Shown piece after piece: positions 46,350 through 59,717 of a stretch of 64,000 nt of DNA. A program made the translations under genes and the position numbers. How positions within the stretch are numbered: position 1 is the first letter of the stretch; each line of letters begins with the position of its first letter. Source of the DNA: Aurantimicrobium sp. (GTDB taxonomy: Bacteria > Actinomycetota > Actinomycetes > Actinomycetales > Microbacteriaceae); the NCBI GenBank assembly GCA_024644865.1, contig JAHEGZ010000009.1, forward strand, positions 1 through 64,000, read 5' to 3'. The notes under the pieces were generated by a model that was not told the origin of the DNA, ran no database searches, and worked only from the letters and a program-made list of their open reading frames with translations.

Positions 46350-47144
46350 CTAGATGGGTTGGGCGTCGGGGTAGCGAACGGTACCGAGCGGGTAAATGTA
46401 ACCGCCGGCTCGGGAGTGCATCGACTCGCCCTCGGCCGAGATGCCGAGGAAGATGCCGGTCGTGTTGAGTCCGTATCCCAAATCGTGCAGCCACACGCTG
46501 GCCACCGAGATGCGGAACTCGCGGAAGCAGAACAGGTACAGGCCGTGATCGAGCTTCCATACGGTGCTCAGATCCATGTCGCCGTGACCGAACTGAGCGC
46601 CCTGCAGGCACTGCCAGGCGTAGCGCTGTGACGAGATGTAGACATGCTCGTAGAGGTGGTTGGGGCTGTAGCGGTAAACGTTGCGCATGCCGATGAGGTC
46701 GCGGCTCTCGTGGGGAACCTCTCCCGAGGCGGATCCCTCGTTGGTCGTGCCTGCCCAGAACTCCTGCGTCACCTGCGGAGTGCCCTCGATTTTCTCGGGC
46801 GCGATGACCGAGTAAGCCACGATCGCGCGATTCGTCGATCGCGAAAAAACAATGGTGATCGACTCGCGGTCGCGGCTGGTCAGCGGCAGGTTGATGAAGA
46901 ACACGCCCTCGCGCACCTCGACAGCGTCGTAGGGGTCTGTGGTTCCCGCTGCGGCCACAATCGGACCGGATGCACTCCACTCCACCTGCTGGCTATCGAG
47001 AAAGTGCAGGTCAATCGCTGAGCTGCCACCGTACGTGATGCTCAGAAAGGCGCCCGCGAGTGAGACGTTGGGTTTGCGATAAGTGTCGATCCCCAGGGCG
47101 AAGTCGTCGTAGGTTTTCCACTCGTCGTGCGCGGCGTCAGCCAT
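46350..47144 (-). CDS. MoaF-like beta-barrel protein
   Basis: The 264-residue, beta-rich protein has no signal peptide. It resembles the MoaF family in its two-domain beta-barrel pattern and the C-terminal block YGLNTTGIFLGISAE, HSRAGGYIYPLGTVRYPD. Despite the database name (molybdenum cofactor biosynthesis F), MoaF is linked to monoamine or aromatic catabolism rather than to the cofactor. The exact role here is unknown. It sits between a dehydrogenase and a SnoaL-like gene. Confidence 0.66.
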   Translation of the reverse strand: MADAAHDEWKTYDDFALGIDTYRKPNVSLAGAFLSITYGGSSAIDLHFLDSQQVEWSASGPIVAAAGTTDPYDAVEVREGVFFINLPLTSRDRESITIVFSRSTNRAIVAYSVIAPEKIEGTPQVTQEFWAGTTNEGSASGEVPHESRDLIGMRNVYRYSPNHLYEHVYISSQRYAWQCLQGAQFGHGDMDLSTVWKLDHGLYLFCFREFRISVASVWLHDLGYGLNTTGIFLGISAEGESMHSRAGGYIYPLGTVRYPDAQPI

Positions 47145-48087: not shown

Positions 48088-49623
48088 TTACGCTCCCGCG
48101 ATGATGAACTCAGCGGCCTTTTCGCCGATGATCATCGACGGCGCGTTGGTGTTTCCGTTGGTCACCGTCGGCATGACCGAAGCGTCAACCACGCGAACAC
48201 CTTCGAGTCCGTGCACCTTGAGCGAGGTCGGGCTGACCACTGCCATCGGGTCGGTGCCCATCTTCGCTGTGCCCACCTGGTGGTGGTAGGTGATGGCATT
48301 GTTGCGGCACCAGAACTCGATCTGTTCATCGGTCTGCAGGTCGGCGCTCATGGCAGCTTCGGTTGCACCCCACTCCTCGGCGAGCGCAGCCTGCTTACCA
48401 ACCTCTCGCACCTGCTTGACCGAGGCAATCAATGTGGCGATGTCGTCGGGATGCGTCAGAATCTGTGGGTCTTGCAGGGTGGCCGCATGCGGGTCGGCGC
48501 TCGAGAGCTTGAACGTTCCACGGCTCTTGGGGGTGACCAGTGCGGCGAACATCGTGAAACCGTCGGCCGGAATGTCTTCGGGCTTCATGGTGTCGGTCAC
48601 CATCGGGACGCTGAAGCATAGCGGCTGCGTATCGGGGCGGTCGAGCTCGGGGCGCGACTTCCAGAACCAGTGCACCTGACTGATTGGCACGCCACGAGGC
48701 GGGGCGCCAATCGGCTTCTTGGAGGTCGTGTAGACCATCGGTACGAGCAGGTGGTCGTGCAGGTTCGCACCGACACCGGGCACGTCAGCCACGACGTCGA
48801 TGCCGAGCGCCTCAAGGTCTGCCTTCGGACCGATGCCCGAAAGAAGCAGGATGCGCGGGCTGTCGAGCGCGCCACCGGCGAGGGCCACCTCGCCGCCGCG
48901 CAGCTCGTGGGTCTGGCCATCCTTTTCGTAAACCACACCGACCACGGTGGTGCCCTCGAGGATCAGGCGGTGAACCCAGGCGCCAGTGGTAATGGTCAAG
49001 TTTGCATTGTCACGAACCGGATGCAGGTACGCACGGTAGGTCGAGAGGCGCTCTCCGTTGCGGAAGTTCAGCTGCTCTTGACCGATGCCCTCAATCTCAA
49101 CGCCGTTGTAGTTGGGGTTGAGCTTGAGGCCCTGTTGCTGGCCAGCAACCAGAATCGAGTCTTGAATCGGGTGCTTGGGGTAGTCGGTGGTGACGTCGAG
49201 GATGCCCTTGGTGCCGAGTTCATTGGGCTCGCCTTGCCAGCTTTCGATCTTGTCGGTGAAGATCTTCTCGACGGACTTCCAGCCCCAGCCGGGGCAGCCC
49301 GCGGCCTCCCAGCCGTCGTAGTCCAAACGATTGCCGCGAACGTAAATCGACGCGTTCAGCGAGTGCGATCCACCGAGCACGCGGCCACGCGGCCAGTGGA
49401 GCTTGCGTCCGTTAGCTCCGGGCTGAGGCGTCGTGTGGTAGCCCCAGTCGTCCGGGCTAAACCACAGCTCGCCCAGACGCGACATGTCGTGAATGGCCGG
49501 GTTCTCGTCGGGACGACCTGCTTCGAGCAGGTGAACGGTCTTGCCTGCATCCAGCAAACGGCGGGCAATAATCGATCCGGCGGTGCCTCCACCAACGATG
49601 ATGACATCGGGCTGTGCGCTCAT
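48088..49623 (-). CDS. GMC family oxidoreductase
   Basis: The 511-residue FAD enzyme has IIVGGGTAGSIIARRLLDAG at its N-terminus, the GMC signature WPRGRVLGGSHSLNASIYVRGN near 80, and a C-terminal active-site His in YHHQVGTAKMG, followed by VVDASVMPTVTNGNTNAPSMIIGEKA. It resembles choline and other alcohol dehydrogenases; the alcohol is unknown. ATG 49623 is preceded by GAGAGGAC; the long upstream open frame runs into the divergent amidase and is not conserved. It heads the leftward GMC, dehydrogenase, MoaF, SnoaL unit. Confidence 0.9.
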   Translation of the reverse strand: MSAQPDVIIVGGGTAGSIIARRLLDAGKTVHLLEAGRPDENPAIHDMSRLGELWFSPDDWGYHTTPQPGANGRKLHWPRGRVLGGSHSLNASIYVRGNRLDYDGWEAAGCPGWGWKSVEKIFTDKIESWQGEPNELGTKGILDVTTDYPKHPIQDSILVAGQQQGLKLNPNYNGVEIEGIGQEQLNFRNGERLSTYRAYLHPVRDNANLTITTGAWVHRLILEGTTVVGVVYEKDGQTHELRGGEVALAGGALDSPRILLLSGIGPKADLEALGIDVVADVPGVGANLHDHLLVPMVYTTSKKPIGAPPRGVPISQVHWFWKSRPELDRPDTQPLCFSVPMVTDTMKPEDIPADGFTMFAALVTPKSRGTFKLSSADPHAATLQDPQILTHPDDIATLIASVKQVREVGKQAALAEEWGATEAAMSADLQTDEQIEFWCRNNAITYHHQVGTAKMGTDPMAVVSPTSLKVHGLEGVRVVDASVMPTVTNGNTNAPSMIIGEKAAEFIIAGA

Positions 49624-49846
49624 GCGTGTGTCCTCTCCATTGAGCACACCCTCGCGTGAAAGAGGGCGTACAGCGATTGTGTCGCGCTCGCCCCCTCCAG
49701 GGAAGTGGCCATTCTCATTCTTCGGGTATCTGTTCACTTGGTGACAAACCGGATACACCACCGGGCAACGGTTTTCGCCGACGAGACGAGTTGACTTATC
49801 GGGCGCGGGTTTCCAACGGGGAAGACCTGTCAGCGCTGGAGGCAAC
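49624..49846. other. Divergent intergenic region, GMC oxidoreductase / amidase
   Basis: This 223-bp non-coding region separates the leftward and rightward halves of the catabolic locus. It contains separated half-sites GTATC (near 49725) and GATAC (near 49753) and the sequence TTGGTGACAAACC between them. A GntR-type regulator could act here, but no symmetric site is clear enough to call. No RNA gene or small ORF is convincing. Confidence 0.35.
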
Positions 49847-51211
49847 ATGTCTGCGTTTCCCGGTTCTATCGCTGATTTTCGTGCGCGCCTTGCCGTCGAC
49901 CCCGAAGCAGTTGCTCGCGCAGCTCGTGAGTCGGCACATGGACCGGGCCAAGAGCTCGGCATCTACTGGGCGGTGAACGAAAACCTGCCGGATGCCCCCA
50001 CCGGCCCACTCGCTGGCCTGCCCTTCTGCGTCAAAGACAACGTCAAAGTAGCCGGACTGCCAACCACCTCGGGAACCCCCGCCCTGCGCGGCGCGGTTCC
50101 GCCGCGCGATGCTGAGCTTGTAGCCCGCCTGAAGGCAGCCGGGGCCGACTTCGTCGGAAAAGTCGGACTACACGAACTCGGCTTTGGAACAACGAGTAAC
50201 AATGCCATGTTCGGTCCGGTGCGCAATCCGCGCGATCCCTCGCGCGTTCCGGGTGGCTCGAGCGGCGGTTCAGCCGCTGCGGTTGCCGCGGGTCTCGTGC
50301 CGTTCGCCATTGGCAACGACACTGGTGGGTCGATGCGCATCCCGGCAGCGTTCTGCGGCGTCGTGGGCATGCGCCCAACCACTCACCGCTACCCGGGAGC
50401 TGGCGCAAACGTGATCTCGCCCTCGCGCGATACCTGCGGAGTCTTTGCGCACACGGTTGTCGATGTGGCTCTGGTGGATGGCGTAATCACCGGCGAGAGT
50501 GAATTACCCTCTTTTTCGCTTTCGGAGCTGCGCCTGGGTGTTCCTCGTCGAGACTTCTTCGACAAGCTCGAGCCAGCTGTGCGTGAGGCGATCGAATCGG
50601 CGCTCGACGCGCTTCGACTCGCGGGTGCCACGCTTATCGACACCGATCTAATTGCCACCGACGGTCGAAGCGTGCACGAGCTGGCCGAGTTCGCCGCGTT
50701 TCCGATGGTGGCTTATGAGACGCTGCACAACTTTGAGGCGAACCTCAAAGAACTGGATGCCCCTTTCAACGCCCTCACGATTTCTGACATTGCAGCGCAG
50801 GTGGCCTCGCCCGACGTAAAGGCGGTGCTCGAGCACATGATCGCCGAGCCAATCACCGACGAGCACTATGCACAAACCCTCGCAGCTCGCGAGCTCATTC
50901 GTCAGGCCTACGCGAATGCGTTCGAGCGGGACAACCTCGACGCTCTGGTCTACCCGCTGGTCGGCTTTGTTGCTCCAGTCATTGGGGGAGCAACGGTGAA
51001 CATCGAGGGCGAAGAACTTCCGCACTTCCAGACCTCGATCCGCAACACGGACCCGGGGAGTACCGCCGGGCAACCTGGCATCAGCATCCCGGTTCCGGTT
51101 GCGGCCGGAGCGATGCCCGTGGGTCTAGGAATCGAGGGTCCTGTGAATTCAGACCGTCGACTTTTGTCTGTCAGCGCACTCATCGAAGAGGCTCTTGCCC
51201 GGGTCGAGTAA
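49847..51211 (+). CDS. Amidase signature family protein
   Basis: The 454-residue amidase has the complete Ser-cisSer-Lys triad: Lys63 in CVKDN, Ser138 in PGGSSGGSAAA and the nucleophile Ser162 in GNDTGGSMR. It hydrolyses an amide to acid and ammonia. In this aromatic locus an aryl-acetamide or similar is a plausible substrate, but that is inference. ATG 49847 has GGAGG about 7 nt upstream. It is the first rightward gene, divergent from the GMC oxidoreductase. Confidence 0.9.
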   Translation: MSAFPGSIADFRARLAVDPEAVARAARESAHGPGQELGIYWAVNENLPDAPTGPLAGLPFCVKDNVKVAGLPTTSGTPALRGAVPPRDAELVARLKAAGADFVGKVGLHELGFGTTSNNAMFGPVRNPRDPSRVPGGSSGGSAAAVAAGLVPFAIGNDTGGSMRIPAAFCGVVGMRPTTHRYPGAGANVISPSRDTCGVFAHTVVDVALVDGVITGESELPSFSLSELRLGVPRRDFFDKLEPAVREAIESALDALRLAGATLIDTDLIATDGRSVHELAEFAAFPMVAYETLHNFEANLKELDAPFNALTISDIAAQVASPDVKAVLEHMIAEPITDEHYAQTLAARELIRQAYANAFERDNLDALVYPLVGFVAPVIGGATVNIEGEELPHFQTSIRNTDPGSTAGQPGISIPVPVAAGAMPVGLGIEGPVNSDRRLLSVSALIEEALARVE

Positions 51212-51251: not shown

Positions 51252-52715
51252 ATGACCGTCAAGCCACTTGAGACAGGCTTTAATCCAGGCAAAATCATTG
51301 CCCTGCACCTCAACTACCCCTCGCGTATCGCTCAGCGTGGTCGCACCCCCGGTCACCCGTCCTACTTTTTGAAGCCGGGAACCTCGTTGGCGACCACCGG
51401 TGGCACCATTGAGCGCCCGGCCGGCACCGAACTGCTCGCGTTCGAGGGGGAAATCGCCCTGATCATCGGGCACGCCGTTCGCCGCGTCGACCCCGAAACA
51501 GGATGGGCCGCCGTGACGGGCATCACCGCCGCAAACGACTTCGGTGTCTACGACCTGCGCTACGTCGACAAAGGTTCGAACCTGCGCAATAAGTGCGGCG
51601 ACGGCTTCACCCCCTTGGGCCCGAACGTGATCGATGCCGCCAACGTCGATCCGCGCGCGATTCGCGTGCGCACCTGGGTTAACGGTCAGCTCGCCCAAGA
51701 CGACACCAGCGCCGACCTCACCTTCTGGTTTGGCCTTCTGGTCTCCGACCTCTCGCAGCTGATGACCCTCGAGCCCGGTGACGTCATTCTCACCGGAACT
51801 CCCGCCGGGTCGTCCGTGGTCAAGCCTGGCGATGTCGTCGAAGTCGAAGTGGATGCCCCCACCGCCGCCGACGCCCCCAGCACGGGTCGCCTTGTCACCA
51901 CCGTGACCGAGGGAACCGTCCCACTTCCAAGCTTCAGTGCCGGCCCGAAAGTCGACGACCTGCAACGCGAGGAAGCCTGGGGATCGCGCGAAGCCGCGGG
52001 CCTGTCGCCCGTGTTCGAGTTGACCGACGAGCTGAAGGCGAAACTCGCTTCGGTCGCAACGGCGACCCTGAGCATCCAACTTCGCAAGCGCGGATACAAC
52101 AACGTCAGTATTGACGGGCTCACTGCCACTCACCCGGGAACGAAGGTCGTGGGACGTGCGCGCACGCTGCGTTACATCGCCAACCGCGAAGACCTCTTCG
52201 AATCGCACGGTGGCGGATACAACGCGCAGAAGCGTCTGTTCGATTCACTCAACACCGACGACATCGTCGTGATTGAAGCTCGCGGCGATGGTCGCTCGGG
52301 AACGCTCGGTGATGTGCTCGCACTGCGCGCTCGCCACCTGGGCGCTGCCGCGCTGATTACCGACGGTGGCATCCGCGACCTGGCTGCCGTGACTGAAATT
52401 GGTGTCCCCGCGTTCCACAACGGAGGACACCCGGCCGTTCTCGGTCGTCTGCACGTACCTTGGGATGCCGACCTGACGGTGACCTGTGGCGGATGCGCCG
52501 TTCAGCCCGGTGACGTGATCGTCGGCGACAACGACGGACTCATCGTCATTCCGCCGAAGCTCGTCGAAGAAGTTGTCAACGATGCCATCGCGCAGGAACT
52601 CGAAGAAGAGTTCATCGCCGAAATCGTTGCGGCTGGCGAGCCCGTCAAAGACACCTTCCCGCTGAACGCAGCCTGGCGCGAAAAGTTCAACGAGTGGAAG
52701 GCGGCCCGCTCATGA
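51252..52715 (+). CDS. FAH-family domain fused to an RraA-like aldolase domain
   Basis: The 487-residue protein joins two enzymes. Residues 10-225 are a FAH/HpaG-type domain: FEGEIALIIG with Glu65 and Glu67, Asp96 in AANDFG, and LEPGDVILTGTPAGS at 173-187. Residues 255-470 are RraA/HMG-aldolase-like: GTLGDVLALRARHLGAAALI and DGGIRDL with Arg375 and Asp376. The first half could decarboxylate or isomerise an oxo-dioate and the second split off pyruvate. It lies in an operon with a GntR regulator, an HpaE-like dehydrogenase and HpaD. It overlaps the GntR gene by ATGA. Confidence 0.88.
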   Translation: MTVKPLETGFNPGKIIALHLNYPSRIAQRGRTPGHPSYFLKPGTSLATTGGTIERPAGTELLAFEGEIALIIGHAVRRVDPETGWAAVTGITAANDFGVYDLRYVDKGSNLRNKCGDGFTPLGPNVIDAANVDPRAIRVRTWVNGQLAQDDTSADLTFWFGLLVSDLSQLMTLEPGDVILTGTPAGSSVVKPGDVVEVEVDAPTAADAPSTGRLVTTVTEGTVPLPSFSAGPKVDDLQREEAWGSREAAGLSPVFELTDELKAKLASVATATLSIQLRKRGYNNVSIDGLTATHPGTKVVGRARTLRYIANREDLFESHGGGYNAQKRLFDSLNTDDIVVIEARGDGRSGTLGDVLALRARHLGAAALITDGGIRDLAAVTEIGVPAFHNGGHPAVLGRLHVPWDADLTVTCGGCAVQPGDVIVGDNDGLIVIPPKLVEEVVNDAIAQELEEEFIAEIVAAGEPVKDTFPLNAAWREKFNEWKAARS

Positions 52716-53365
52716 CCGAAACAATCGCACTTAGCAAGTCGGAGCGGGCTTACCTGCTCATCAAGACGAAAATCACCGACGGGACCTTCGGCCCCGGTTA
52801 CCGTCTTGTACTCGGAGCCATCGCCAAAGAGCTCGATGTCAGCGTTGTTCCTGTTCGCGAGGCAATCCGTCGTCTTGAAGCCGAGGGTCTCGTCACCTTC
52901 ACGACAAACGTCGGTGCACAGGTTGTGGCCACGGATGCCCGCGAATATCAGTACACGATGGAGACCCTCAGCCTGGTCGAGGGCATGGCCACCGCAATGG
53001 CTGCCCCCAACGTGACAGCCAGCGATATCGCCCTTGCTCGCAAGATCAACGCTGAGATGCGTGAATGCCTCGAGCACTTCGAGCCAACCCGCTTCACCGA
53101 GCTCAACCACGAGTTCCACGCGGTCATCTTCGAGCACTGTGCCAACCTGCACATTCTCGACCTGGTTCACCGGGGATGGAACCGTCTCTCCACCATTCGC
53201 GAATCGGCTTTCATTTATGTCCCGGGGCGAGCCAAAGACTCCGTGGATGAGCACGAGCACCTGCTCGACCTCATCGAGTCGAAAGCTGACCCACTCGAAA
53301 TCGAGCTCGCCGCTCGCAACCACCGTTTGTCCACGCTGCACCAGTTTTTGGCCAGCAAGAAGTAA
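52712..53365 (+). CDS. GntR family regulator, FCD subfamily
   Basis: The 217-residue protein has an N-terminal winged helix (SERAYLLIKTKITDGTFGPGYRL, then LDVSVVPVREAIRRLEAEGLV at about 38-58) and a helical FCD domain with metal-type His residues (ELNHEFHAVIFEH, and ARNHRL near the end). It probably senses a pathway acid and controls this aromatic locus. ATG 52712 overlaps the fusion gene stop (ATGA); the frame opens 18 bp earlier. Confidence 0.88.
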   Translation: MTETIALSKSERAYLLIKTKITDGTFGPGYRLVLGAIAKELDVSVVPVREAIRRLEAEGLVTFTTNVGAQVVATDAREYQYTMETLSLVEGMATAMAAPNVTASDIALARKINAEMRECLEHFEPTRFTELNHEFHAVIFEHCANLHILDLVHRGWNRLSTIRESAFIYVPGRAKDSVDEHEHLLDLIESKADPLEIELAARNHRLSTLHQFLASKK

Positions 53366-53379
53366 TCCAAGGAGCTTCC

Positions 53380-54891
53380 ATGTCCAACCGCCCCGCAAAT
53401 CTGCCCGAAAAAATTCAGCACTTCATCGACGGCAAGTTCGTCGACTCACTGGATGGCGACACGTTTGACGTTGTTGAACCCGTTTCCAACGAGGTTTACA
53501 TCACCTCGGCGTCGGCTAAAGCCGCCGATGTCGACCTGGCCGTGGCCGCCGCCAAGAAGGCGTTTGACTCGGGCCCCTGGCCTCGCATGTTGCCACGCGA
53601 GCGCTCGCGCATCCTGCACCGTGTTGCCGACATCGTCGAGTCGCGGGATGAGATTCTCGCTGAACTCGAGTCGTGGGACTCGGGTCTGCCGATTACGCAG
53701 GCGCTGGGTCAAGCTCGTCGTGCCGCCGAGAACTTTCGGTTCTTCGCTGACCTGATTGTCGCCCAGCACGACAACGCGTTCAAGGTGCCCGGTCGCCAGA
53801 TGAACTACGTCAACCGCAAGCCGATTGGCGTTGCTGGCTTGATTACCCCCTGGAACGTTCCGTTCATGCAGGAGTCGTGGAAGCTTGGCCCGGCCATGGC
53901 CACCGGTAACACTGTCGTCCTCAAACCCGCGAGCTACACCCCGCTCTCGGCGGCCCTGTGGCCCGAGATCTTCAAGGAGGCCGGTGTTCCCGACGGTGTC
54001 TTCAACCTCATCCTGGGGTCGGGTGGCGTCGCCGGAGACCACCTGGTCAAGCACCCGGATGTTCCGCTCATTTCGTTCACCGGCGACAGCTCGACCGGCG
54101 CAACGCTGTCAACCAACGCCGCTCCCCTGCTCAAGAGTCTTTCTCTAGAGCTCGGCGGTAAGTCGCCCGCAGTTGTATTCGCTGACGCAGACCTCGAGGC
54201 CGCGCTCGACGCCACCGTGTTTGGTGTCTTCAGCCTCAACGGCGAGCGTTGCACCGCCGGCAGCCGCGTACTCGTGGAACGCAGCATCTACAACGACTTC
54301 ATCGAGAAGTTTGCCGAGCGCGCTCGCAACATCAAGGTCGGTTTGCCGACCGACCCCTCGAGCGAGGTCAGCGCACTAGTTCACGAGAAGCACACCGAGA
54401 AGGTGCTCAGCTACATCGAGATTGGCAAAACCGAAGGCCGCCTGCTCGCTGGTGGCGGCCGCGTTGAAGGCCTTCCGGGAGGAAACTTCGTCGCCCCCAC
54501 CGTGTTTGTCGATGTCGAGCCCGACGCTCGAATCTTCCAGGAGGAAATCTTCGGCCCGGTCGTTGCCATTACACCGTTTGATTCCGACGAAGAGGCACTC
54601 GAGCTAGCAAACAACACCCGTTACGGCTTGGCCGCATACGTGTGGACGACCAACCTCAAGCGCGCGCACAACTTTGCCCACGGCATCGACTCAGGAATGG
54701 TGTGGCTCAACTCGAACAATGTTCGCGACCTGCGCACGCCGTTCGGCGGCGTCAAGGCCTCGGGCCTCGGCCGAGAGGGCGGATACCGCTCCATCGATTT
54801 CTACACGACTCAGCAGTCCGTGCAGATCACCCTCGAAGAATCTCACTCCCCCCGCTTCGGCGTGGGTGGAGCCACCTTCGGCAAGCACTAA
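53380..54891 (+). CDS. hpaE: Aldehyde dehydrogenase, HpaE-like
   Basis: The 503-residue NAD-dependent aldehyde dehydrogenase has TPWNVPF near 156, the general base Glu257 in LELGGKSP and the nucleophile Cys291 in NGERCTAGS. Its place directly before HpaD fits 5-carboxymethyl-2-hydroxymuconate semialdehyde dehydrogenase, the next step after ring cleavage. Family membership alone would not fix the substrate. CAAGGAG precedes ATG 53380. Confidence 0.84.
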   Translation: MSNRPANLPEKIQHFIDGKFVDSLDGDTFDVVEPVSNEVYITSASAKAADVDLAVAAAKKAFDSGPWPRMLPRERSRILHRVADIVESRDEILAELESWDSGLPITQALGQARRAAENFRFFADLIVAQHDNAFKVPGRQMNYVNRKPIGVAGLITPWNVPFMQESWKLGPAMATGNTVVLKPASYTPLSAALWPEIFKEAGVPDGVFNLILGSGGVAGDHLVKHPDVPLISFTGDSSTGATLSTNAAPLLKSLSLELGGKSPAVVFADADLEAALDATVFGVFSLNGERCTAGSRVLVERSIYNDFIEKFAERARNIKVGLPTDPSSEVSALVHEKHTEKVLSYIEIGKTEGRLLAGGGRVEGLPGGNFVAPTVFVDVEPDARIFQEEIFGPVVAITPFDSDEEALELANNTRYGLAAYVWTTNLKRAHNFAHGIDSGMVWLNSNNVRDLRTPFGGVKASGLGREGGYRSIDFYTTQQSVQITLEESHSPRFGVGGATFGKH

Positions 54892-54921: not shown

Positions 54922-56079
54922 ATGTCTGAACTTAAAGGTCGCGAAAAGACCTCGAGCGGTTTCTACGTCACCGACGAAGCCCCCATCAAGACCAACAACC
55001 CGGTCGCAACCCCGAAAGCGAGCCCGCCCGACATTCTGCGCTGTGCGTACATGGAGCTGGTCGTGACCGACCTGGCCAAGTCGCGCCACTTCTATGTCGA
55101 CGTGCTCGGTCTCGTGGTCTCGCACGAAGACGAGAACGCTATTTACCTGCGTTCGATGGAGGAGTTCATCCACCACAACCTCATTCTGCGCAAGGGGCCA
55201 GTTGCCGGTGTCGCCGCGTTCTCATACCGTGTGCGCAGCAACGAAGATCTCGACAAGGCGGTGGCGTTCTACACCGAGCTGGGCTGCGAGGTTCGTCGCG
55301 AGAAGAAAGGATTCGTCAAGGGCATCGGTGACTCGGTTCGTGTTGTCGACCCGCTGGGTTTCCCGTTTGAGTACTTCTACGAGACCACTCACGTGGAGCG
55401 CCTGGCTTGGCGCTACGACCTCTACGTGCCAGGTGCGCTCGTTCGTCTCGACCACTTCAACCAGGTCACCCCGGATGTCCCCCGTGCGGTCAAGCACATG
55501 CAAGACCTGGGCTACCGGGTGACCGAAGACATCCAAGACGAAGAGGGAACCGTGTACGCAGCATGGATTCGCCGCAAGGCGACTGTGCACGACACCGCCA
55601 TGACCGGTGGTGACGGACCCCGCATGCACCACGTAGCGTTCTCGACCCACGAGAAGCACAACATCCTGTCGATCTGCGACAAGCTCGGTTCGCTTCGCAT
55701 GAGCGACCACATCGAGCGCGGCCCGGGCCGTCACGGTGTCTCCAACGCGTTCTACCTCTACCTTCGCGACCCCGACGGACACCGCGTTGAGATCTACACG
55801 CAGGACTACTACACGGGTGACCCTGACAACCCGGTGGTCACCTGGGATGTGCACGACAACCAGCGTCGTGACTGGTGGGGCACCCCGGTTGTGCCCAGCT
55901 GGTACACCGACGCCTCGATTGTGCTCGACCTCGACGGCAACCCCCAGCCGGTCATCGCACGCACCGACGCCTCAGAGATGGCCGTCACCATCGGAGCCGA
56001 CGGATTCTCGTACGGCAAAGAGGGTGAAGAGATGCCTGACTGGAAGAAGGGCGAGTTCAAACTCGGCAACCAGCTCTAG
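54922..56079 (+). CDS. hpaD: Homoprotocatechuate (3,4-dihydroxyphenylacetate) 2,3-dioxygenase
   Basis: The 385-residue type I extradiol dioxygenase has two VOC domains. Iron (or Mn) ligands are His178 (RLDHFNQ), His237 (RMHHVAFS) and Glu290 (HRVEIYT). Their spacing of 59 and 53 matches the Brevibacterium enzyme (His155, His214, Glu267) with an N-terminal shift of 23. It opens the catechol ring of homoprotocatechuate. AGAAAGGACA precedes ATG 54922. Its last 4 bp overlap convergent metH. Confidence 0.93.
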   Translation: MSELKGREKTSSGFYVTDEAPIKTNNPVATPKASPPDILRCAYMELVVTDLAKSRHFYVDVLGLVVSHEDENAIYLRSMEEFIHHNLILRKGPVAGVAAFSYRVRSNEDLDKAVAFYTELGCEVRREKKGFVKGIGDSVRVVDPLGFPFEYFYETTHVERLAWRYDLYVPGALVRLDHFNQVTPDVPRAVKHMQDLGYRVTEDIQDEEGTVYAAWIRRKATVHDTAMTGGDGPRMHHVAFSTHEKHNILSICDKLGSLRMSDHIERGPGRHGVSNAFYLYLRDPDGHRVEIYTQDYYTGDPDNPVVTWDVHDNQRRDWWGTPVVPSWYTDASIVLDLDGNPQPVIARTDASEMAVTIGADGFSYGKEGEEMPDWKKGEFKLGNQL

Positions 56080-59000
56080 ACCGAGAAGTACTTGGCCTCG
56101 GGGTGGTGGAACACGAACGCGTCAGTTGACTGCTCCGGGTTGAGCATGAGCTCATCGCTCAGGGTGATACCCACGCGCTCGGGCTTGAGCAGCTCAACCA
56201 CCTTGCGACGATCTTCCATCTCGGGGCAGGCCGGGTAGCCGAGCGAGAAGCGGGCTCCGCGGTACTCGAGCTTGAACATCCCGTCAATGGTGCTGGGGTC
56301 TTCGTCGCCAAAGCCGAGCTCAGCACGGATGCGCGAGTGCCAGTACTCCGCGAGCGCTTCGGTCAGCTGCATGGCTAGACCGTTGAGCTCCATGTAGTCG
56401 CGGTATGCGTCGGCCTCGAACATGGCGGCGGTGAACTTGTCGACCGTTGCACCCACCGTGACGAGCTGCACAGGGAGCACGTCGACCTGCCCCGACTCGC
56501 GCGAGCGCACGAAGTCAGACAGGCACAGGTGGCGATCACGGCGTTGACGCGGGAAACCAAAGCGCAGGCGTTCAGTGCCCAGGGGGCCTGTCGAGCCACC
56601 GTCGGGAGAGAGCAAGCCGGCGACGCCGAGAGCTCCGGTGGGGTCATCGCCGTGGTGCAGCACGATCGTGTCATCGCCCTGGCTCACGACGGGAAAGTAG
56701 CCGTAGATCACGGTCGGGTCAAACATGCCCTCGGCCAGAATGCGGTCGAGCCAGTAGCGCAAACGCGGGCGGCCCTCGGTCTCGACAAGCTGTTCATAAG
56801 ACGCGCCGTCTTCACCGCGGCCGGGCTTGAGCCCCCACTGGCCCATAAAGGTCGCGCGCTCATCAAGGAACGCGGCAAAGTCGGCCAATGGAATGCCCTT
56901 GACGATTCGCGTTCCCCAGAACGGCGGAGCAGGCACCGGGTTGTCGGTGGCGACATCAGAGCGCGCGGGCATGTCGGCAACCGGCGTCTCAATCAGCAGA
57001 CCCGGTCGATGGATGCGCTTCTTCAGTGGCGGCAAACCAACACTGTTGGCATCCGCACCACGAGCAATCGCGACCAGGGGTTCCATCAACGCGAGCCCCT
57101 CGAAGGCGTCTTTGGCATAACGTACTGTTCCCTCGAAGAGCTCGGCGAGGTCTTCCTCGACGAATGCGCGCGTCAGTGCTGCGCCGCCGAGAATGACGGG
57201 CCACTTCGTAGCCAGCCCGCGAGCGTTGAGTTCCAGCAGGTTCTCTTTCATGACCACCGTCGACTTCACGAGCAGTCCGCTCATGCCGATGACATCGGCC
57301 TTGTGCACCTCGGCCGCAGCGATGATGTCGTTGATCGACTGCTTGATGCCGATGTTGACGACGTCGTAACCGTTGTTGGTCAAAATGATGTCGACGAGGT
57401 TCTTGCCGATGTCGTGCACGTCTCCGCGCACGGTGGCCAACACAATCTTGCCTTTGCCGGCGGCCTCGCTCTTTTCCATGAACGGCTCAAGAAGTGCAAC
57501 GGCCGTCTTCATGACCTCGGCCGACTGCAACACGAACGGCAACTGCATCTCGCCTTTGCCGAAACGGTCGCCCACAACCTGCATGCCCGAGAGCAGGTGG
57601 TCGTTGATGATGTCGAGTGGTGCCATTCCCTCGGAGCGTGCGGTGGCGAGGTCTTCTTCGAGGCCCTTGTTCTCGCCGTCGATGATGCGGCGGGCCAAGC
57701 GTTCGCCAAGCGGAAGGGCGGCTAGCTCTGCAGCACGCTGATCTTTGAGAGCAGCTGAATCGACGCCGGCAAACAGGTCGAGCATCGTCGATAGCGGGTC
57801 GTAGGTGAGGTTGCCTTCGACGTCATACTCCCGGCGGTCCCAGACCAGGTCGAGGGCGACCTTGCGCTGGTCGTCGGGCACGCTCGCCAGCGGAACGATT
57901 TTGGCCGCATCGACGATTGCCGAGTCGAGTCCGGCTTCGACCGCCTCATGCAAGAAAACAGAGTTGAGCACAACGCGGGCGGCAGGGTTTAGCCCGAACG
58001 ACACGTTTGATACTCCGAGAGTGGTGTGAATGCCCGGATACTTCGTGGTGATCTGACGAATCGCTTCGATGGTCTCAATGGCGTCGCGGCGGGTTTCTTC
58101 TTGCCCGGTGGCGATCGGGAAGGTCAGGGCATCCACGATGATGTCGGTGACTTTCATGCCCCATGAGCCGACCAGGTCGTCGACCAGCCGACTGGCAATG
58201 CGCACCTTGCCCTCGGCCGTGCGCGCCTGACCCTCTTCGTCGATCGTCAGTGCGATGACGGCAGCGCCATGCTCTTTGACCAGGGGCATGATTTTGCCGT
58301 AGCGAGAATTCGGGCCATCACCATCTTCGAAGTTCACCGAGTTGACCACGGGGCGACCGCCGATGAGCTCCATGCCAGCCTGAATCACGGCGGGCTCGGT
58401 GGAGTCAATGACCAACGGCAGAGTGGATGCGCTGGCAAACCGCGACACGATTTCGCGCGCGTCGTCCACGCCGTCGCGACCGACGTAGTCGACACAAACG
58501 TCGAGCAGGTGCGCACCCGAGCGAATCTGGTTCTTTGCGATCTCAACGCAGTCGTCCCAGCGTTGTTCGAGCATTGCCTCGCGGAACGCCTTGGAGCCGT
58601 TCGCATTGGTGCGCTCACCGATGGCAAGGTAGGCATTGTCTTGGCTGAACGGAACGTGCTGGTAAAGGCTCGCGACACCCGGGTCTTCTTCGATGATTCG
58701 CCCGGGTCTCGATACGCCGCCCTCGGCGGCTACTCGACCAGCGACTGGCGCCAGGCGATCGACAACGGCCTTCATGTGTTCCGGTGTCGTGCCGCAGCAT
58801 CCGCCGACGAGCGAGAGGCCGAACTCGCGCACGAACTGCTCGTGAGCGGTGGCCAACTGGTCGGGGGTGAGAGGGTAGCTCGCACCCGTTGCCGTCAGCA
58901 CGGGAAGACCGGCGTTGGGCATGCACATGACCGGAACCTGAGAGTGCTTCGACAGGTAGCGAAGGTGCTCGCTCATCTCGGTCGGGCCGGTGGCGCAGTT

Positions 59001-59717
59001 CAAGCCAATCATGTCTACGCCGAGCGGCTCGAGCGCGGTCAACGCCGCACCAATCTCGCTTCCCATGAGCATCGTGCCGGTGAGCTCGACCGTGATCTCA
59101 ACAAAAATCGGCAAGCGGATGCCCAGCTGCGCAATCGCTTGCTTGCACCCGTTGACCGCTGCCTTGGTTTGCAGCAAGTCTTGTGATGTCTCAATGAGAA
59201 ACGCGTCGGTGCCGCCCTTGATCAGGCCGACCGCCTGCTCGGCGAACGTGTTTCGCAGGTGAGCGTACGTCGTGTGCCCAAGACTAGGCAGCTTGGTTCC
59301 CGGACCCATCGAACCGAGCACCCAACGCATTCGGCCATCGCGGGCTTCGAACAATTCGACGGCATCTCGAGCCAGTCGCGACCCAGCCTGAGCGAGCTCC
59401 TCAATGCGGTCTTCGATGTTGTAGTCAGAGAGGTTCGACCAGTTCGCACCGAACGTGTTGGTCTCAATGGCGTCGATACCCGTTTCGAGGTACGCGTTGT
59501 GGATGCTCGTAATGATGTCGGGGCGCGACACATTGAGGATCTCGTTGCAACCTTCCAGCTGCTCGTAGTCGGCCAGAGTGGGGTTGAACTCCTGAAGTTG
59601 TGTGCCCATGGCGCCGTCGCCGATGACGACACGAGTGGCGAGCGCATCCAGCAGCGCCTGCGAGCGCGCGGGAATCACGGCACTCGAAATGTCGAGGGTG
59701 TATTCAGCGTCACTCAC
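56076..59717 (-). CDS. metH: Methionine synthase, cobalamin-dependent
   Basis: The 1213-residue enzyme has all four modules: homocysteine domain (1-320; zinc ligands Cys241, Cys307, Cys308), pterin domain (about 355-620, NAYLAIGERTNANGSKAFREA), B12 domain (about 665-890, RGDVHDIG with His768 as the cobalt ligand) and the C-terminal activation domain (about 930-1213, RYWLDR to PACPEMEDR). It methylates homocysteine. GTG 59717 lies 6 nt after TAAACT, so it looks leaderless. Residues 326-338 in the linker between the first two domains are encoded by a dispersed repeat. Confidence 0.97.
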   Translation of the reverse strand: MSDAEYTLDISSAVIPARSQALLDALATRVVIGDGAMGTQLQEFNPTLADYEQLEGCNEILNVSRPDIITSIHNAYLETGIDAIETNTFGANWSNLSDYNIEDRIEELAQAGSRLARDAVELFEARDGRMRWVLGSMGPGTKLPSLGHTTYAHLRNTFAEQAVGLIKGGTDAFLIETSQDLLQTKAAVNGCKQAIAQLGIRLPIFVEITVELTGTMLMGSEIGAALTALEPLGVDMIGLNCATGPTEMSEHLRYLSKHSQVPVMCMPNAGLPVLTATGASYPLTPDQLATAHEQFVREFGLSLVGGCCGTTPEHMKAVVDRLAPVAGRVAAEGGVSRPGRIIEEDPGVASLYQHVPFSQDNAYLAIGERTNANGSKAFREAMLEQRWDDCVEIAKNQIRSGAHLLDVCVDYVGRDGVDDAREIVSRFASASTLPLVIDSTEPAVIQAGMELIGGRPVVNSVNFEDGDGPNSRYGKIMPLVKEHGAAVIALTIDEEGQARTAEGKVRIASRLVDDLVGSWGMKVTDIIVDALTFPIATGQEETRRDAIETIEAIRQITTKYPGIHTTLGVSNVSFGLNPAARVVLNSVFLHEAVEAGLDSAIVDAAKIVPLASVPDDQRKVALDLVWDRREYDVEGNLTYDPLSTMLDLFAGVDSAALKDQRAAELAALPLGERLARRIIDGENKGLEEDLATARSEGMAPLDIINDHLLSGMQVVGDRFGKGEMQLPFVLQSAEVMKTAVALLEPFMEKSEAAGKGKIVLATVRGDVHDIGKNLVDIILTNNGYDVVNIGIKQSINDIIAAAEVHKADVIGMSGLLVKSTVVMKENLLELNARGLATKWPVILGGAALTRAFVEEDLAELFEGTVRYAKDAFEGLALMEPLVAIARGADANSVGLPPLKKRIHRPGLLIETPVADMPARSDVATDNPVPAPPFWGTRIVKGIPLADFAAFLDERATFMGQWGLKPGRGEDGASYEQLVETEGRPRLRYWLDRILAEGMFDPTVIYGYFPVVSQGDDTIVLHHGDDPTGALGVAGLLSPDGGSTGPLGTERLRFGFPRQRRDRHLCLSDFVRSRESGQVDVLPVQLVTVGATVDKFTAAMFEADAYRDYMELNGLAMQLTEALAEYWHSRIRAELGFGDEDPSTIDGMFKLEYRGARFSLGYPACPEMEDRRKVVELLKPERVGITLSDELMLNPEQSTDAFVFHHPEAKYFSV
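58705..58741 (-). repeat. Dispersed palindromic repeat, copy B, inside metH
   Basis: This 37-bp element, read on the minus strand, begins CTGGTCGAGTAGCCGCCGAG and ends GTATCGAGACC. It has the internal arms GCCGCC and GGCGGC. It matches copy A (37305-37341) at 30 of 37 positions. It is in frame with metH and encodes AGRVAAEGGVSRP, part of the linker between the homocysteine and pterin domains. Confidence 0.72.

Follow-up and report, generated by a model that had tools for sequence, protein, structure and literature searches.

Which step of homoprotocatechuate breakdown is carried out by a protein that joins a fumarylacetoacetate hydrolase (FAH)-type domain and an RraA-type domain in one chain? 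A gene for such a fusion lies in the window that we analyzed, a stretch of 64,000 nucleotides from Aurantimicrobium sp. The features discussed here are as follows.

49847 to 51211, + strand: amidase, ending 40 bases upstream of the fusion on the same strand
51252 to 52715, + strand: FAH-RraA fusion protein, 487 aa, NF009399/PRK12764 family, with full-length relatives found
51291 to 51905, + strand: FAH half of the fusion, aa 14 to 218 (PF01557), with metal ligands E65, E67, and D96, lysines K41 and K114, and R25/Q28 at the dyad positions
52062 to 52547, + strand: RraA-like half of the fusion, aa 271 to 432 (PF03737), with D354, R375, and D376
52712 to 53365, + strand: GntR/FCD regulator, with a predicted ATG start at 52712 that overlaps the stop codon of the fusion (GTG at 52694 in the open reading frame list)
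53380 to 54891, + strand: HpaE-like dehydrogenase (TIGR02299)
54922 to 56079, + strand: hpaD, homoprotocatechuate 2,3-dioxygenase, near structurally solved namesake enzymes

A two-domain protein of a family without an assigned function

Pfam searches of the fusion matched PF01557 (FAA_hydrolase; 157.8 bits, cutoff 23.9) over aa 14 to 218 and PF03737 (RraA-like; 92.7 bits, cutoff 24.5) over aa 271 to 432, and returned no third family. The NCBI model NF009399 covers aa 9 to 486 with 789.4 bits, above its cutoff of 444; judged by its sequence, the protein is a member of NF009399/PRK12764 and differs in nothing from that family. No internal stop was found in the translations of 90 fusion sequences, the window's own among them, with start codons taken as found, unrefined. 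The span of the NF009399 match and these 90 intact translations rule out chance or a frameshift artifact as the origin of the fusion. The family is already modeled at NCBI, yet it has no assigned function: its NCBIfam label is "fumarylacetoacetate hydrolase family protein," with no specific function attached. A search of open-licence literature gave, among the matches listed, no paper on a FAH-RraA fusion. An AlphaFold2 model built from 41 sequences shows two domains (mean pLDDT, 87.5; pTM, 0.57), one matched separately by FAH-fold entries and the other by RraA-fold entries; given the moderate pTM, their relative placement is not fixed by the model.

Downstream of the fusion, the gene order is GntR/FCD regulator, HpaE-like dehydrogenase, and HpaD, with the GntR gene sitting between the fusion and hpaE. 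The dehydrogenase scores 635.8 bits with TIGR02299, slightly below the cutoff of 638.35, and this is still its top family. HpaD reaches 430.4 bits with TIGR02295 (cutoff, 321.4), and solved homoprotocatechuate 2,3-dioxygenases match it at 591 to 634 bits, which lends good support to the substrate assigned to this cluster. Pfam, NF009399, and the neighboring genes all agree with the first-pass annotation in placing FAH-type and RraA-type domains on one open reading frame in an HpaD/HpaE cluster.

The amidase gene upstream may be cotranscribed with the fusion. It is indoleacetamide-hydrolase-like and, together with a GMC oxidoreductase gene on the - strand, occupies positions 48088 to 51211; GMC and/or amidase genes of a similar kind lie near the fusion in four other loci (L044, L046, L047, and L051), and such neighbors may hint at the upstream substrate of this lineage. 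A MoaF-like protein (PF10703/PF17409) is encoded near the aromatic cluster at 46350 to 47144 (- strand). In the predicted MetH at 56076 to 59717 (- strand), a short stretch near the C terminus looks out of frame, which seems to resemble two compensating frameshifts or an assembly error.

Distribution of the fusion in actinobacteria

In a sample of 396 genomes from the phylum, 8, counting that of the window, have the fusion above the NF009399 cutoff. Scanning named genomes turned up at least 578 tblastn-confirmed relatives, some of which are perhaps not fusions. The best 80 of these stretches were taken for comparison, a sample that for this reason favors close relatives and full fusions. Where their origin is named, they come from Actinomycetota, including Cryobacterium, Leifsonia, Mycetocola, Arthrobacter, Microbacterium, and Amycolatopsis. 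In four plasmid records, the match takes in 80% or more of the query; with two of them (Rhodococcus sp. NBC_00297 and pTC2 of Paenarthrobacter aurescens TC1) added to the best 80, we compared 82 loci. Among these, hpaE was present at 60% identity or more in 80 (L062, L071, and L114 giving partial matches); 76 loci have hpaD at 55% or above, most of the remaining loci ending at a contig edge. Both plasmids have the order fusion-gntR-hpaE-hpaD-hpaH-hpaI, in which the P. aurescens hpaD was detected by tblastn and is absent from the PLSDB table. Many actinobacteria carry the fusion inside a hydroxyphenylacetate breakdown cluster. For Arthrobacter sp. Rue61a, the available part of PMC3534580 describes growth on 4-hydroxyphenylacetate, homoprotocatechuate, and tyrosine and proposes a meta pathway. 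In Leifsonia sp. SCN 70-46 (L062:10001-13321), we saw the fusion, gntR, and a DapA-like gene, but hpaE is matched only over a short stretch and hpaD not at all; this cluster is apparently truncated.

A candidate stand-in for HpaG

We consider it likely, from sequence and gene context, that the fusion is an actinobacterial stand-in for HpaG, and possibly for HpaF too. The main argument comes from the 13 of the 396 genomes with HpaD above the cutoff: eight have the fusion (all eight fusion genomes of the sample), four have a single HpaG_C-type FAH, and one has an RraA-type protein alone. The three gene types look like alternatives to each other among these 13 genomes, which points to the same step. 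The four alternative clusters (G032, G058, G081, and G111) read GntR-DapA-like-single HpaG_C-type FAH-HpaE-HpaB-HpaD, with GntR not detected in the G081 cluster. Three of the four exceed the HpaG C-terminal cutoff; the gene of G081, in two pieces, stays below it with 194.9 bits. None of these operons encodes an RraA domain, so the step does not in general depend on RraA. In the RraA-only locus (G109), the lone protein is 50% identical to the RraA half of the fusion, and a DapA-like gene and HpaD come after it; no close hpaE lies nearby (the best is 43% identical to E. coli HpaE), which makes the pathway of this locus less sure. One fusion genome (G338) has the fusion (C257) and hpaD on different contigs, with a stand-alone FAH of the R25 type described below near hpaD (C402). 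Adjacent split FAH and RraA genes in one hpa operon were not seen in the nine regions read, namely, the RraA-only region of G109, the HpaG_C-only regions of G032, G058, G081, and G111, the fusion regions of G225 and G338 (C257), C402 of G338, and a region of G026 that holds an RraA-only gene and no hpaE or hpaD matches.

Searches for the enzymes that the fusion would replace were in line with this. HpaF was found in none of the 82 loci, with the E. coli control found. PF02962 (HpaF) had no match in 10 fusion genomes and records, the controls being silent too, and none of the 10 exceeded the cutoff of the HpaG N-terminal model, nor did any control. The HpaG C-terminal model gave no hit above the cutoff in the 22 fusion genomes searched, out of about 90, with 2 of 14 controls above it. 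The fusion itself, with its one FAH domain, scores far under the cutoffs of the HpaG models TIGR02303 (144.4 against 276.4 bits), TIGR02305 (101.6 against 228.65), and NF011750 (125.4 against 811). It resembles E. coli HpaG/HpcE (1GTT/1I7O) and Acinetobacter baumannii OPETD plus HHDDI in having two catalytic domains in one chain or complex and in being grouped with hpaE and hpaD; unlike HpaG/HpcE, it has an RraA domain in place of the second FAH domain. Its FAH half is 37% identical to the C-terminal half of E. coli HpaG over 178 aa.

Active-site residues and division of labor

In the RraA half, D354, R375, and D376 are invariant in all 90 fusions and align with D102, R123, and D124 of the Pseudomonas putida HMG/CHA aldolase, of which we take D102 to have a metal/enolate-site role. 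The RraA half has the Asp-Arg-Asp metal/enolate site of an RraA-type class II aldolase. Arg-123 of the P. putida enzyme stabilizes the pyruvate enolate and Asp-124 binds the metal, according to the portion of PMC5065237 at hand. E449, present in 89 of the 90 fusions, may correspond to the metal ligand Glu-199 of that aldolase, the alignment being uncertain at this point. The RraA-only protein of G026 has His at the D354 position. The fold of the RraA half is that of the P. putida F1 enzyme (3NOJ, RraA family; Z, 21.6), but its scores with the HMG/CHA aldolase models are far under the cutoffs (74 against 179 bits for NF006731 and 66 against 304.5 for TIGR02798), and it is fused to a FAH domain and proposed to be a decarboxylase.

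In the FAH half, E65, E67, D96, and K114 are found in all 90 fusions and K41 in 89. Glu65 and Arg375, the two residues singled out for mutation in the first-pass annotation, are both invariant. The C-terminal half of E. coli HpaG has the same letters, Glu, Glu, and Asp, at the metal triad. The dyad positions are different: all 90 fusions have R25, and residue 28 is Gln in 82 and Glu in 8, against His and Glu in all four HpaG_C-type sequences compared. The N-terminal half of E. coli HpaG, which is assigned as an isomerase (PMC12718150, available in part), has Gln at both positions. For FAHD1, the accessible sections of PMC8398924 propose that a His30-Glu33 dyad holds the catalytic water in place and that the enol proton is shifted by a Lys-Asp-Lys network. 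By analogy, the His-x-x-Glu dyad would be transferable to HpaG by its spacing, and K41, D96, and K114 would map onto the Lys-Asp-Lys network.

The absence of the His-Glu dyad suggests that the FAH half is an isomerase and, together with the invariant D354, R375, and D376, favors the RraA half as the decarboxylase. We put this division of labor forward tentatively, at slightly under an even chance. A fused pair without HpaF is plausible from the A. baumannii system, where, in the part of PMC12718150 available, OPETD must associate with HHDDI for efficient decarboxylation, and the reaction proceeds without CHMI (HpaF) and faster with it. An RraA-family dehydratase/decarboxylase is also known: FlDet of alginate breakdown belongs to the RraA family and decarboxylates a 2-oxo acid, as proposed for the fusion, but acts on a sugar acid (PMC8563752, from the sections at hand; compared by family and described activity).

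The roles may also be reversed, the FAH half being, like the C-terminal domain of HpaG, the OPET decarboxylase and the RraA half an isomerase or tautomerase that replaces HpaF or the HpaG N-terminal half. The FAH half fits the HpaG C-terminal model (144.4 bits) better than the N-terminal model (101.6), it keeps the metal triad, and HpaF is missing. Yet the His-Glu dyad of the HpaG C-terminal domain is not kept, Arg replacing His in 90 of 90 fusions; an RraA-only locus exists beside hpaD (G109); and the RraA-family activities in the available parts of PMC5065237 and PMC8563752 are those of an aldolase and a dehydratase/decarboxylase. We regard this reversal as rather unlikely.

The R25 type is also found in stand-alone FAH proteins. 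All 22 that we examined, 21 from the best FAH-only rows of the 396-genome search (L013 to L033) plus L130, carry R25, in the combination H19/R25/E28, and are 44 to 48% identical to the FAH half of the fusion. These 22 proteins rule out that loss of the dyad is peculiar to the fusion or began with it; to judge from the sequences, the fusion probably inherited the R25 type. Their flanks (mostly 1.5 kb) gave only remote GntR and aldehyde dehydrogenase matches, apart from an hpaD match near L130, and four wider neighborhoods, read by open reading frames alone, gave no pathway.

FAH paralogues elsewhere in the genomes

If the fusion were an accessory enzyme, for example, for removal of an off-path tautomer or decarboxylation of oxaloacetate, an unlinked FAH paralogue would perform the HpaG step, and by its score one such paralogue could do so. 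Fusion genomes have several FAH paralogues each, some of which outscore the fusion with the HpaG C-terminal model: one in the window's own genome, on contig C37, has 156.2 bits against 145.9 for the fusion, and unlinked paralogues reach up to 208.3 bits. Among the 82 loci, matches to FAH paralogues 29 to 42% identical to E. coli HpaG occur in L039, L049, L051, and L113; FAH paralogues were left out of the HpaG counts. Against an accessory role, no paralogue reaches the HpaG cutoffs (276.4 bits for the C-terminal model) in the genomes searched, and the fusion is the FAH gene that stands beside hpaE and hpaD. We therefore hold an accessory role to be improbable.

The pyruvate-releasing step is probably encoded elsewhere

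The first-pass annotation had the FAH half decarboxylate and the RraA half act as a pyruvate aldolase in place of HpaI, with substrate passed between the sites. The class II pyruvate-enolate residues of the RraA half speak for this, as does the open reading frame list of the 64-kb window, which has no hpaI adjoining the operon. However, hpaH- and hpaI-like genes are present in the same genome on contig C117, where the start of the hpaI-like gene overlaps the end of the hpaH-like gene. TIGR02311 and TIGR02312 are their respective best families, both with scores under the cutoffs (307.8 against 368.8 bits for hpaI and 334.7 against 351.5 for hpaH). HpaI matches were found in 9 of the 10 fusion genomes and records searched; none reaches the TIGR02311 cutoff, and these sub-cutoff matches include plasmid-record genes annotated as HpaI or HpcH/HpaI aldolase. 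The fusion protein itself gave no match to PF03328 or TIGR02311 (HpcH/HpaI aldolase) at an E value of 0.001. Contamination as the source of C117 is less likely, its tetranucleotide signature being near that of the window (r, 0.967), though just under the values for chunks of the window (0.971 to 0.984; Cryobacterium, 0.928). The closest relative by fusion identity (75%), another Aurantimicrobium (L044), likewise has hpaH and hpaI on another contig, and in six of six other fusion genomes of the same family or order, HpaI lies within about 6 kb of the fusion.

An aldolase module was found within flanks of about 10 kb in 73 of the 82 loci: HpaH plus HpaI in 39, a DapA-like aldolase in 34, neither in 9, and both in none. 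When only the loci with 9 kb or more on each side are taken (61), the respective counts are 32, 26, 3, and 0. The HpaH and HpaI genes are on the strand of the fusion in 34 of the 39 loci and divergent in 5, the nearest of them 0.8 to 5.0 kb from the fusion. As for the nine module-free loci, HpaH is above the cutoff elsewhere in seven of the genomes (with HpaI adjoining in both of those read); in one, a DapA-like gene runs into the contig end (96% identity over 76 residues); and in the last, L117, a genome search for HpaH and the DapA-like gene found no aldolase module. On a quick tree of the 90 fusions, built without bootstrap and with 88 labeled (53 HpaH plus HpaI and 35 DapA-like; L062 and L117 unlabeled), the module label changes 9 times (shuffled labels, mean of 27.7), and supported branches account for at least 6 of the changes; 8 of the 53 HpaH-plus-HpaI labels come from genes elsewhere in the genome (the window's, and seven judged by HpaH alone). 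The fusion is thus constant while the aldolase varies, and since the last steps are exchanged while the fusion stays, it is placed before those steps.

The DapA-like gene (L051:12170-13117 and 33 other loci) lies mostly between gntR and hpaE, where HpaH plus HpaI is absent. The count of 34 is by tblastn, at 69 to 100% identity to two query proteins that belong to the same set. We picked 33 open reading frames between the GntR gene and hpaE, the 34th locus being L062; 31 have the class I lysine motif, and the other two (L092 and L115) are wrong-frame picks without DapA motifs from loci that also hold a DapA-like gene by tblastn (76% and 69% identity). For three of the proteins, TIGR02313 ("HpaI-NOT-DapA") is the top NCBIfam family with 312 to 340 bits, below its cutoff of 396.7, and TIGR00674 (dapA) is passed with 264 to 276 bits (cutoff, 206), so that NCBI rules would name them dapA. 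Their cluster position, their identity of 69 to 100% to the two query proteins of the set, and the identity of only 32% between the query and its sole match in the window's genome, which we take from its sequence to be the biosynthetic dapA, stand against that plain name. Because it is present without HpaH, the DapA-like gene product would also perform the hydration of HpaH, and it is possibly a hydratase-aldolase.

The hpaH/hpaI-like genes or DapA-like aldolase of fusion genomes contradict, as far as gene content can tell, the idea that the fusion takes over the role of the final pyruvate-releasing enzyme, and we now consider it very improbable. Separate HpaI/HpaH genes coregulated with the operon would, by the first-pass annotation, count against the replacement; as to presence, separate hpaH- and hpaI-like genes are there. 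What stands of the first-pass annotation is a two-domain, probably lower-pathway enzyme of an hpaE/hpaD cluster with intact metal-site residues; the replacement of HpaI does not.

That the RraA half is a nonenzymatic RNase E-type regulator or scaffold can practically be set aside, since none of the 90 fusions departs from D354, R375, and D376 and a related protein of the RraA type occurs by itself next to hpaD, although the closest fold and closest solved relative is Streptomyces coelicolor RraAS2 (5X15; 128 bits; Z, 26.5; 35% identity), which by its PDB title is an RNase ES inhibitor family member and which, unlike the fused RraA half, is a stand-alone protein.

Proposed role of the fusion

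In the reaction that we propose, the fusion would convert the tri-acid made by HpaE (5-carboxymethyl-2-hydroxymuconate/OPET) to a di-acid and CO2. The RraA half would decarboxylate the 2-oxo acid, bound by way of a divalent metal and Arg375, and the FAH half, with its metal ligands and lysines but without the His-Glu dyad, would perform the enol/keto isomerization. The di-acid, 2-hydroxyhepta-2,4-diene-/2-oxohept-3-ene-1,7-dioate, would pass to HpaH and HpaI, or to the DapA-like aldolase in other species, for pyruvate release. With both activities on a single chain, the fusion would parallel E. coli HpaG, with its two FAH domains, and the OPETD-HHDDI complex of A. baumannii. The whole picture, in which an RraA-fold metalloenzyme is the OPET decarboxylase, a dyad-less FAH isomerase makes HpaF unnecessary, half of HpaG has been replaced nonorthologously, and the downstream module (HpaH plus HpaI or a DapA-like hydratase-aldolase) is freely exchanged, is possible, with the balance leaning somewhat against all of it holding together.

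If the proposal is true, it would fill the missing middle step, the removal of CO2, of a textbook pathway for aromatic compounds in Arthrobacter, Cryobacterium, Microbacterium, Amycolatopsis, and their relatives, a step adjoining that of a ring-cleaving dioxygenase with many solved structures. It would also give a function to the NCBI family NF009399, which has none, and would show that RraA-fold enzymes are able to replace FAH-fold decarboxylases.
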